A DNA stretch of 60,616 nucleotides from Patescibacteria group bacterium (GTDB lineage Bacteria; Patescibacteriota; Saccharimonadia; Saccharimonadales; UBA4665), in assembly GCA_030272735.1 (NCBI GenBank), contig JARXKL010000006.1:1-60616 (forward strand), given 5' to 3'. The translations under genes and the position numbers were made by a program. How positions within the stretch are numbered: the stretch's first letter is position 1; each line of letters begins with the position of its first letter. Of this stretch, positions 44,679-48,126 are shown in pieces. The notes beneath the pieces were generated by a model. The model ran no database searches, had not been told where the DNA came from, and saw nothing but the letters and a program-made list of their open reading frames with translations.

Positions 44679-45146
44679 ATGGATAAGCAAGATGGCGGTT
44701 CCATCCGTCCAACTAAAAAACAAAAAGAACTCCTAGCGTATATTGAGCAATTTATAGGCGAGCACGGCTATAGCCCGAGCTACCGTGAAATTATGCGCGG
44801 CCTTAACTATACTTCTGTGGCTACCGTAGCACTGCATGTCGGCAACCTCATTAAGCGTGGTCATTTACGCAAACGTGATAATTCTGCCCGTTCACTCGAA
44901 GTTATCGAATCAACTGAGCAGGCAAAAATCACCACCAACGAAGTAAAACCAAGTGAAGAAAAGTGGCTCGTCGAAAAAGTCGATCACGCCTTTGCGCAAC
45001 TTGAAACTCTTGGCGGCGAACTCAAGGAAACCAGCATTGACCATTTGTATGTCTTGCTGGGTGCGCTCAAAGTTCTCGGACTTGAAGGAGCGGCGCAAAG
45101 CTTTATGCCACGCCTGACTGAACTCAAGCAGCGCCAAGAAGCCTAA
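44679..45146 (+). CDS. LexA-type winged-helix DNA-binding protein without peptidase domain
   Basis: 155 aa. Residues about 10-70 match the LexA N-terminal DNA-binding domain (RPTKKQKELLAYIEQFI, GYSPSYREIMRGL, VGNLIKRGHLRKRDNSARSLEV). The second half is acidic and helical and has none of the LexA Ser/Lys peptidase motifs, so RecA-induced self-cleavage is not expected. It could be a repressor with another switch. CATAAT (44667-44672) ends 6 nt before the ATG, so it is probably leaderless. Its function in the SOS response is doubtful. Confidence 0.8.
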   Translation: MDKQDGGSIRPTKKQKELLAYIEQFIGEHGYSPSYREIMRGLNYTSVATVALHVGNLIKRGHLRKRDNSARSLEVIESTEQAKITTNEVKPSEEKWLVEKVDHAFAQLETLGGELKETSIDHLYVLLGALKVLGLEGAAQSFMPRLTELKQRQEA

Positions 45147-45159
45147 TGCAGGCAGTCCA

Positions 45160-45846
45160 ATGTATGTAGCGAATAAAAAAGGTAAATCGGCCCGGCGCAA
45201 ACGCCTCGTTTTATTTATAATTTTGTTACTTCTTATCGGTGCTGGCTTCTATGCCTACGGTGTTATTAAGGAAGCTCTTAAGCCGCAAACGACCATTTCA
45301 CAGTCAAAAGCAGTGCAGTCCGTCATCCGCTACGACAATAAAATGAAGCATTATGACGAGCCAGATTTTGGCATAGATTTACCAGCGAATTGGCAGCCGG
45401 TAGCCCGCGAAGCAGGTGCTTACCAGACGTATACCTGGCAAGTAAGTGACCGCGGCACTGAGGGCCAGCAAATTATGATTTTTGAAGATACTATTCCTCC
45501 AAATGCCACCGTAAACCGCGCTTTGGTTGTAGCCGGAGAAGGCGATCACCTGACCCTCAACGGCGAAGTGTCTGACGATTGCACGACGTTCACGAAGAAC
45601 ATAGCCACCACCAATAACAGAGTCAGCGTGCCTGCAAAATGGATGGGTATAGACTTTTTGTGCGATGGCTTTACGCAGGACCGTAATGTAACCGGGACAA
45701 GTTCGAGCGACGGCCTGAACACGGTAATTTTGCGAAACCCCGGCACCGGCCAGAGCCATAAATTCTTTTTTATGTACACCACGCACAGCAAAAACCCGGA
45801 TTACACGACGTTTTACGCAGCGCTGCGTAGCCTCAAAATGCAGTAA
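45160..45846 (+). CDS. membrane-anchored hypothetical protein
   Basis: 228 aa. Basic N-terminus, one membrane helix (about residues 17-36, LVLFIILLLLIGAGFYAYGV), then an extracellular domain of about 180 residues with two or three Cys. The pattern FGIDLPANWQPVAREAGAYQTYTW resembles small secreted domains of unknown function seen in Saccharibacteria. I do not recognise a family. It follows the LexA-like gene by 13 nt, and the riboswitch-like leader begins just after it. Confidence 0.55.
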   Translation: MYVANKKGKSARRKRLVLFIILLLLIGAGFYAYGVIKEALKPQTTISQSKAVQSVIRYDNKMKHYDEPDFGIDLPANWQPVAREAGAYQTYTWQVSDRGTEGQQIMIFEDTIPPNATVNRALVVAGEGDHLTLNGEVSDDCTTFTKNIATTNNRVSVPAKWMGIDFLCDGFTQDRNVTGTSSSDGLNTVILRNPGTGQSHKFFFMYTTHSKNPDYTTFYAALRSLKMQ

Positions 45847-45900
45847 TAACTACTATATCTAGCGTATCGATCGAGTGCTACAGTACTATATACAGTAATA

Positions 45901-46040
45901 ATTGAGCTGGAATCCTGTGCAATTCAGGAACTGTGCCGCAACGGTAAGGGTTAAAACCCAAGTCCGATACAGCTTCGTAAAGACTCTCGAGCAAGAGCAC
46001 TGGCGTAAGGCCACCCTCCCGCTCGACATCTGAGGGCAAA
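45901..46040 (+). ncRNA. cobalamin-riboswitch-like leader (class II type)
   Basis: The conserved blocks GGAATCCTGTGCAATTC, ACTGTGCCGCAACGGTAA and AAGTCCGATAC occur in the order and spacing of the cobalamin riboswitch core. Supporting stems: AGCTG (45905-45909)/CAGCT (45970-45974), TCCTG (45913-45917)/CAGGA (45925-45929) and GGGT (45948-45951)/ACCC (45956-45959). Downstream, the Shine-Dalgarno GAGGG (46032-46036) can pair with CCCTC (46014-46018), and TCGAGC (45987-45992) can pair with GCTCGA (46021-46026) in that hairpin's loop, around the hairpin TGGC/GCCA (46001-46013). This predicts translational control of the gene at 46041. A large P1/P2 and the long peripheral extensions of class I are not obvious. 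Confidence 0.85.
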
Positions 46041-47462
46041 ATGGCCGTAGCAGCCGAAACACTTAATTGGACATTTGAAGAAGAGCTTGAATATGTTCGT
46101 TCTCCTAAAGAGGAAACGTATGGCCGTTCGTTGACTACAATCTTCAGACTTGGGCGCTTGATGGTCGAAAATTCAGTAGCAGATGTAGCGCATAGTCCTG
46201 AGGCCGAGCAGACGAGAGCAGAATTTTATACTTCGGTGGAAGAGGGTTTCGGCACTGATAAAGAGTTAGGCGGCGGGCTGCAAGTTCGCGACTTTGACCT
46301 GAGACCGGTTATTGATGGACGAGTGATGGCTAAAGATCTTAAAACTGCAGTTTCAGAGATGACGCAAGCTGGTCTTATCTGTGCACGAGAAACTGCAGAT
46401 AAGGACAAGCGATTTCTCCCGCAGCTGACGCGATCAAAATGGGACCATCAGAACGCCTTGATAGTCGACAAAATGGTGCAAGGTGAGACTGGCTACAACA
46501 CGCGGATTATAGTTAGTCCATTCCCGGAAGAGGCGGCAGCCAAAAGTGGTAATAAATTCTGGCAGGATATAGGCTACGTACCTCACCTTAAGCGTGCATT
46601 TGTTCAGCTTTATCACGTAAATGAAGAAGGACTTCTAGCTGGCTCATTATCATTCGACGGAAGCGAGAAAGAAAAGATCCGTGAAGTACTGCATCGTCTC
46701 GGTGTCGAAATACCACTTGATGAGATCACAGATAACTACCTGGGATATGCATACATGGATACCTTGCAAGTGGACGATGCCAAGGCTTTAGGCTTAGCAG
46801 TTGCCAACGATGCGGGTGATGCTAAATATAATAAGACTACTAACACAGTTGATTTGACGCGCCAGCACCGTGCCGCAATGGAGGCGGCGTTTAATGATTC
46901 GTATATTCATGCTTGCGAATCGCATGCACGAGGAATACAGACACCAAAAACACGCCAGTTGATTATGAGTTTGGCTCACGAAGCCGGGCATTTCAACAAG
47001 CGTTATGCCAGCGCACTCTACAAAATGAGAGAAAATGAAAAGCAATTTACTGATGACGACATGGCAGTTATCCATGAGCTGCTTGTTTTTTCAACTATTG
47101 AAATGATGCGTGCCGTTCACCTTAAAGAGCCGGCACCAAATTTTGTCAGCAGTGGCGCTAGTGCAGTAGTCATGTTCAATCAGGCGCACATTGAGTCAAT
47201 GAACGAACAAGAATTCCAAAAAGTCCTGAGTGGTTTTGGCGCGACCGGTGCAAGAGAAAACCGGGTCTATTCAGCCTGCGGACTATCAATTTCACTCGGG
47301 GGTGAGCCAGGGAATGATGACCCACAAAGTGCCTTTGGTGGGTTGAGCAGCAAAGAATTATCGTGGCACGGTGGCTCTATAAAAAAAGGCAAATGTGTCA
47401 ACTGCCATAAAGACACCGATGTGGGAGTAAAAAGCTGGTGTAAAAAATGTATCAAATGTTAA
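46041..47462 (+). CDS. unrecognised protein with HEXXH motif and C-terminal zinc ribbon
   Basis: 473 aa, soluble, no signal peptide. Residues H313-E314-A-G-H317 (LAHEAGHFN) form a zinc-peptidase-like HEXXH motif, followed by acidic residues (VIHELLVFSTIE) that could supply a third ligand. The C-terminus has C452, C455, C467, C470 and C473 (CVNC, CKKC), a four- or five-Cys zinc ribbon. The remaining sequence matches no family I know. Translation should be governed by the cobalamin-like leader directly upstream, whose SD (GAGGG) ends 4 nt before the ATG. A protease or a B12-linked enzyme are possible; function is open. Confidence 0.75.
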   Translation: MAVAAETLNWTFEEELEYVRSPKEETYGRSLTTIFRLGRLMVENSVADVAHSPEAEQTRAEFYTSVEEGFGTDKELGGGLQVRDFDLRPVIDGRVMAKDLKTAVSEMTQAGLICARETADKDKRFLPQLTRSKWDHQNALIVDKMVQGETGYNTRIIVSPFPEEAAAKSGNKFWQDIGYVPHLKRAFVQLYHVNEEGLLAGSLSFDGSEKEKIREVLHRLGVEIPLDEITDNYLGYAYMDTLQVDDAKALGLAVANDAGDAKYNKTTNTVDLTRQHRAAMEAAFNDSYIHACESHARGIQTPKTRQLIMSLAHEAGHFNKRYASALYKMRENEKQFTDDDMAVIHELLVFSTIEMMRAVHLKEPAPNFVSSGASAVVMFNQAHIESMNEQEFQKVLSGFGATGARENRVYSACGLSISLGGEPGNDDPQSAFGGLSSKELSWHGGSIKKGKCVNCHKDTDVGVKSWCKKCIKC

Positions 47463-47529
47463 TGAGCCATTCGGCCTCAGGAGTATAATAAGAACAGCTA
47501 CAAACAACAAAGATGGCTGAAAGGTGACT

Positions 47530-48126
47530 ATGGCAAACAGGCGAGTTGGGGTCTATGCAGGTACGTTCAACCCGGTGCACGCCGGGCATATTGCCTTTGC
47601 GCTGCAGGCGCTCGCAACAGCCAAACTCGACGGCATTTATTTTTTGCCCGAGCGGCAGCCGCGCTACAAAAAAGGTGTTGAACATTTTGCGCACCGTTTA
47701 GCGATGCTTGATCGCGCCCTAGAGCCACATCCTAAGTTGCGAGCATTAGATTTACCAGACATAAACTTCACTGTGCAACGCACCTTGCCGAGGCTCCAAA
47801 AAATACATCCGGACGACCAGTTAGTCTTTTTAGTGGGTTCTGAACTGTTAGCGACGCTGCCAGGCTGGCCATATAGCGACCAGTTACTGAAGCAGGCCGA
47901 GCTGGTGATCGGACTCCGAGGATTCGATACCGCCGAAGACGTAGACAAAGAATTATCAGTATGGAAAATACAGCCAAAATTCACTCATATCGTGCAGAGC
48001 TACGCGCCGCGGATTTCTTCGACGGTTATTCGGGACGCGCTGCGACGCAAACAGCGGGTACAGGGCTTATTACATAGTGTTGAGCGCTACAGCGACCGAC
48101 ATTGGCTGTATGTGTCACTGGCGTAG
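47530..48126 (+). CDS. nadD: nicotinate-nucleotide adenylyltransferase-like protein
   Basis: 198 aa. The (H/T)xGH motif is FNPVHAGH and the ISSTxIR motif is PRISSTVIRD, the two signatures of NadD. It adenylates nicotinate mononucleotide in NAD synthesis. I chose the ATG at 47530 because AAAGGTG (47520-47526) is a good Shine-Dalgarno; a GTG at 47524 lies inside it. The spacing and fold fit NadD rather than CoaD. Confidence 0.9.
   Translation: MANRRVGVYAGTFNPVHAGHIAFALQALATAKLDGIYFLPERQPRYKKGVEHFAHRLAMLDRALEPHPKLRALDLPDINFTVQRTLPRLQKIHPDDQLVFLVGSELLATLPGWPYSDQLLKQAELVIGLRGFDTAEDVDKELSVWKIQPKFTHIVQSYAPRISSTVIRDALRRKQRVQGLLHSVERYSDRHWLYVSLA

Follow-up and report, generated by a model that had tools for sequence, protein, structure and literature searches.

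A cobalamin riboswitch precedes a repeatedly exchanged protein family without assigned function in Saccharibacteria

Cobalamin riboswitches are described by one clan of RNA models (RF00174, RF01482 and RF01689), and genes under riboswitches of this class are switched off when cobalamin binds. Saccharibacteria are very small and live attached to other bacterial cells. Elsewhere among bacteria, loci are known at which versions of a gene are exchanged, for example those of pyoverdine receptors and polymorphic toxins. In Streptomyces, the ribonucleotide reductase (RNR) genes nrdABS have a B12 riboswitch in an organism with a B12-dependent NrdJ (PMC4991794), and DUF4430 has been described as the C-terminal domain of transcobalamins (PMC4350170). 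At the locus described here, which lies in a 60,616-nt stretch of Patescibacteria DNA (contig JARXKL010000006.1; the window), a riboswitch of this class stands before the gene of a 473-aa protein, a member of a new family in Saccharibacteria that we named HVP. In the open-licence literature on Saccharibacteria or Patescibacteria together with cobalamin, riboswitches or ribonucleotide reductase, we found the HVP system undescribed.

A cmscan search of the whole window identified RF00174 at positions 45856–45991 of the forward strand (as for all features below), with the core CTGTGCCGCAAC, at 36.0 bits against a gathering score of 31.5 and with an E-value of 1.6e-5. This was the sole Rfam RNA of the window and the only RF00174 match in the 841-kb genome. 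A preliminary description of this DNA had claimed a conserved cobalamin riboswitch core in the leader and had proposed covariance models as a check, and the match above the gathering score bears the claim out. As to the candidate class II assignment made there, the aptamer has 4 nt at the place where the RF00174 model has a long insert of 61, and the best model for the leaders of relatives differs, being RF00174, RF01482 or RF01689. A score of 36.0 against 31.5 exceeds the cut-off only moderately, which would be compatible with a spurious match in a leader without any B12 role; however, a riboswitch with conserved core and platform recurs before homologues across the order, and it also precedes B12-uptake-type and NrdA genes. 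Because the leader is conserved, we regard this reading as already refuted and a spurious match as very improbable. Judged by its sequence, the RNA of the window is an ordinary cobalamin riboswitch, and it is the controlled gene that is out of the ordinary.

Overlapping the end of the aptamer match is the CTCTCGAGCAAGAG hairpin (45984–45997), probably P13 of the expression platform; among 71 leaders from relatives, 65 have its motif. The hairpin's CGAGC (45988–45992) is complementary to GCTCG at 46021–46025, and complementarity of the first element to downstream sequence was found in 30 of the 71 leaders, compared with 8.9 expected. This alternative pairing appears in the predicted fold of lowest energy for the window leader, at an unexceptional energy (z = -1.3 and -1.9). 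Further downstream (46014–46036), CCCTC (46014–46018) can pair with GAGGG (46032–46036), the Shine-Dalgarno (SD) sequence, in a hairpin ahead of the ATG at 46041. An exact 5-bp stem enclosing the SD region occurred in 41 of the 71 leaders, compared with a mean of 7.7 and a maximum of 17 in shuffled upstream sequence; the SD-sequestering hairpin that had been proposed earlier is present and recurs well above expectation. We propose that the bound aptamer would favour the 45984–45997 hairpin, leaving the 46014–46036 hairpin free to hide the SD, such that B12, when present, would repress the HVP gene. With B12 absent, the alternative pairing would open the SD hairpin, and the protein would therefore be made during B12 scarcity. 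The sequence argues strongly for B12 control of the HVP gene; that cobalamin is bound, that B12 represses and that switching passes through two states is what we infer for its mechanism.

Using the window protein as a query against 93 genomes of the same family, we found 11 further homologues with 21–62% identity, and the core motif GCCGCAAC.GT was present upstream of all 11, in 10 cases with recognition by covariance model as well. Four homologous contigs that bear organism names are Candidatus Saccharibacteria, the group to which the organism of the window belongs. An RF00174 search of these 93 genomes matched 68, nearly always once each, and the genes behind the matches included 64 coding sequences of common architecture, in which a body of ~300–430 aa leads into a Cys motif, Cys-Gly or Cys-Pro in most cases, and, after a linker, a tail rich in Cys. 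Sorted by body, the 64 sequences form clusters of 30, 26 and 7 plus one singleton; the two large clusters are homologous (hhalign 98.5%, E 3e-15), while the third (7 sequences) shares, as far as tested, only the layout and the leader. A protein-only profile search of the class matched 56 of 393 genomes, all in one order and 27 belonging to families other than the window's, and among 380 genomes of the phylum matches fell solely within the same order. At the 27 loci from other families, a cobalamin riboswitch was detected upstream in 20 at E ≤ 0.02, with a weaker trace in three more (23/27). The loci without a detectable riboswitch were those of G393, G315, G275 and G247; G393 and G315 have the same score and length and are probably one contig, and G247 also lacks NrdJ. 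Because the RF00174 loci within the family were collected via the riboswitch itself, the unbiased linkage figures are 11/11 and 23/27, and by these the leader travels with the gene, as the preliminary description had suggested checking. Riboswitch and HVP are linked across the order, the main clusters are one family and the riboswitches are homologous.

HVP of the window (46041–47462) is predicted to be cytosolic. It matched no Pfam or NCBIfam profile even at an E-value of 10, and on that ground we rejected the idea that it is one of the known genes for B12 transport, B12 synthesis or an RNR, in agreement with what had been said of the gene from its sequence. AlphaFold2 modelled the window protein confidently (pLDDT 83.1, pTM 0.80), except for the last 50 residues, ribbon included, which were modelled without confidence; a cluster-2 member reached a pLDDT of 87.7 and a pTM of 0.80. 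Foldseek found no PDB match at E ≤ 0.001 for either model, in line with an unrecognised protein, and no match in BFVD for the cluster-2 model. The HVP members have no common PHROG or PADLOC family, and a search of viral contigs yielded no relatives; with these results and the BFVD result, a phage or defence origin was rejected.

From the models and alignments, HVP appears to have an alpha/beta body of no recognised fold, together with a Cys-Gly motif that is conserved and a zinc-ribbon tail that can be swapped. The motif, Ser-Ala-Cys-Gly, occupies residues 411–414 (47271–47282), and C413 is invariant in 26 aligned members, an alignment with only four invariant columns. The tail, at residues 452–473 (47394–47459), belongs to type T4 of the nine swappable types in our survey. 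A Cys ribbon had been noted there before, and we indeed found a ribbon-type cysteine run whose C452 and C467 are conserved in relatives. Among the 93 genomes, only G072 has a close match to this tail, and a similar tail occurs in another family (L159). All 86 homologues have at least four Cys within the last 130 residues, a count that is partly circular, since Cys patterns were used in picking the ORFs; Cys-rich ends were seen too in complete sequences of a set left unfiltered. The HEXXH assignment made earlier did not survive comparison. HEAGH is literally there at residues 313–317 (46977–46991), which is what would suggest a metalloprotease under B12 control, but it is found in 1 of 86 homologues, which is chance level, and the corresponding position reads ADKAS, ADKAR, ADNAQ or SLKAA in orthologues at 54–61% identity, so it is not a conserved site. 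As neither a peptidase profile nor a peptidase fold was matched, we rejected the metalloprotease, the chance of which we consider negligible.

A hydrophobic stretch of membrane strength was absent from all homologues but one, and at the HVP N-terminus we found neither an export domain nor a signal, nor any hydrophobic stretch. MAVAA-like start residues were seen in 15 of 87 HVP sequences, across body clusters. At the other end, 17 of the 87 sequences, which are related to one another, terminate in Ala-Ala (many in LAA or VAA, and also in ALAA), compared with 0 of 133 flanking proteins, and such ends could act as ClpXP degrons. Because of this relatedness, the P value of the contrast is too small.

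The upstream neighbour (44679–45146) encodes a LexA-type DNA-binding domain (PF01726, E 4e-14) with a short C-terminal part and without the S24 peptidase half, and the downstream neighbour (47524–48126) a nadD-like nucleotidyltransferase assigned by motif; both positions are kept in most relatives. Positions 45160–45846 of the window encode a protein of 228 aa that has a membrane stretch at its N-terminus and could be placed in no clear family, and in several relatives (L011, L055, L058 and L062) a similar gene lies ahead of the riboswitch. At loci from other families (L159, L163–L166, L172 and L173), an undecaprenyl-diphosphatase-like gene, read by eye, lies 5′ of the riboswitch, where it replaces or adjoins the LexA-like gene.

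Set against these flanks, HVP is far more divergent, with a median pairwise identity of 24.5%, whereas the LexA-like protein reaches 60.4% and NadD 49.0%; for genomes of a single genus, the values were 27%, 65% and 63%, respectively. When seven version labels, which we assigned from the clusters, were placed on a tree built from both flanking proteins, 19 changes were counted, compared with a mean of 21.8 for shuffled labels and a minimum possible of 6. Well-supported sister genomes carried different versions (G087/G088, G026/G027 and G051/G054), and the HVP version shows almost no coupling to the flanking-gene tree. Several of the nine tail types occur on more than one body cluster. The two tail types for which we searched were found at most once per genome, at the HVP locus wherever checked, and tails acting as a general genomic cassette were thus not seen for these two types. 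For those close pairs that allowed an estimate, dN/dS was ~0.09–0.31, and these proteins are therefore under purifying selection; given this, and given that versions jump on the flank tree, fast mutation is not favoured as the source of the diversity. Versions and tails are exchanged, and most HVP diversity stems from the exchange of old versions: at one fixed locus, other versions replace the HVP gene between lineages.

The usual RNR of the window's family is the adenosylcobalamin-dependent NrdJ, two tested members passing the PRK06556 and TIGR02504 cut-offs, and an RNR large chain, mostly of ~930 aa, was found in 83 of the 93 family genomes. B12 sensing is therefore to be expected, and the unexpected part is the regulated protein and the swapping of its versions. 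For this locus, the preliminary description had put forward an undescribed B12-linked role; this stands insofar as the riboswitch-linked gene is of no known B12 class, but with NrdJ as their usual RNR these bacteria are not B12-indifferent. Outside the family, 25 of 27 genomes with HVP had NrdJ, as against 6 of the 21 order members without HVP (Fisher p = 7e-6), where “without” means by that profile (two of the six, G100 and G116, have riboswitch-linked versions of other clusters) and where the co-occurrence is not many-fold independent evidence, because most negatives fall in one family.

All nine DUF6580 genes above cut-off stand in a riboswitch–DUF4430–DUF6580 arrangement; four of these sets are followed by HVP, four are in HVP's place at the same locus and one lies apart. 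We take DUF4430–DUF6580 to be a putative B12-uptake pair. The family's second riboswitches precede either this pair or class I NrdA; in G079 (L085) and G024 (L094), a further cobalamin riboswitch lies directly before class I NrdA, alongside a resident class II NrdJ or the like, and there NrdA may be a B12-independent RNR kept in reserve. HVP is associated with B12-uptake-type genes and with NrdJ. At the LexA–nadD locus of L067, L080, L091 and L060, the riboswitch is followed by DUF4430–DUF6580, without HVP. In two genomes of other families of the class (L220 and L231), it is followed by two predicted exported proteins; read by eye, the first looks like DUF4430 proteins and the second like a repeat protein of transcobalamin type.

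These associations, together with the riboswitch before 11/11 and 23/27 homologues, lead us to favour, tentatively and at slightly less than an even chance, a reading in which HVP is a B12-shortage protein that helps to obtain, salvage or spare cobalamin for NrdJ. HVP would then act in B12 supply; most of these bacteria require B12 for making DNA building blocks, a need that may be the reason why they have the switch and its protein. Direct uptake of B12 by HVP is unlikely because it has no signal peptide or membrane stretch. Several observations weigh against a role in supply: HVP has no B12-binding motif and no transporter or enzyme signature, a housekeeping cofactor protein would not usually have its versions exchanged, the co-occurrence with NrdJ is partly one clade effect, and G275 and G393/G315 have HVP without a detectable riboswitch. 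In addition, the window's own genome (G000, 93% complete) yielded no RNR large chain, and folding support for the alternative pairing is modest.

That the presence of HVP follows NrdJ also fits an intracellular partner of NrdJ or of its cofactor, such as an adaptor of NrdJ, a chaperone for cobalamin or a non-homologous adenosyltransferase making adenosylcobalamin for NrdJ. HVP is cytosolic by sequence, with a conserved Cys and a zinc ribbon, and no PduO/EutT-type adenosyltransferase (PF01923) was found in any of the 93 family genomes, G000 included, though adenosylcobalamin-dependent NrdJ is usual among them. This gap may, however, be apparent, the search having covered only the PduO/EutT type, with CobA a further type of the enzyme; moreover, four invariant columns in 26 members are few for an enzyme, and the versions are swapped. 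We consider such a partner, on balance, unlikely.

The near uncoupling of version from flanking-gene tree, the swapping of tails between body clusters, the identity far below that of the flanks and the Ala-Ala ends would instead suit an effector directed at partners on B12 shortage, which would leave the cell without a classical signal, perhaps via its tail, and act on the host or on competitors, with differing partners explaining the differing versions. Neither a secretion signal nor a toxin-like domain was found, close pairs are under purifying selection, and the adjacent immunity gene that is a feature of polymorphic toxins was absent, the nadD-like gene being next in most loci; we consider an effector rather improbable. 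It is equally doubtful, in our view, that the B12 riboswitch drives a polymorphic, horizontally exchanged protein of new fold, with swappable zinc tails, as a partner-specific factor when B12 is short. Our preferred reading remains that of a protein serving B12 supply.

If true, these findings would amount to a large B12-controlled protein family without assigned function in some 15 families of one order, and to an unusual case of a vitamin riboswitch ahead of a repeatedly replaced gene. They open to experiment the question of how Saccharibacteria, whose RNR depends on B12 and in which no PduO-type adenosyltransferase was recognised, obtain cobalamin from the environment. Were the partner-specific reading true, HVP would be a vitamin-triggered factor of a kind not described before, used in dealings with bacterial partners. 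A review noted that an inducible expression system for these bacteria is still to be developed and named riboswitches as promising (PMC11665869), and the window leader is a candidate native switch for Saccharibacteria genetics.

Compared with known systems, the HVP locus resembles the exchange loci of pyoverdine receptors and polymorphic toxins in its swapped versions, conserved flanks and modular ends, but no receptor, toxin or immunity part is recognised, and the protein is cytosolic by sequence, with purifying selection in close pairs. With DUF4430–DUF6580, a transcobalamin-type C-terminal domain plus a membrane protein, HVP has riboswitch and locus in common, as well as one operon in four genomes, whereas the window protein lacks membrane and exported domains and is unrelated to the pair in sequence. 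The logic of Streptomyces nrdABS, with a riboswitch before a class I RNR, is matched exactly by two relatives (G024 and G079); unlike there, the controlled protein in most genomes here is no RNR. With the cobalamin riboswitches themselves the window leader has in common an aptamer core that scores above cut-off and a hairpin enclosing the SD ahead of the start codon, and the difference lies in what follows: a gene that belongs to no described B12 class and that is swapped while leader and flanks stay.
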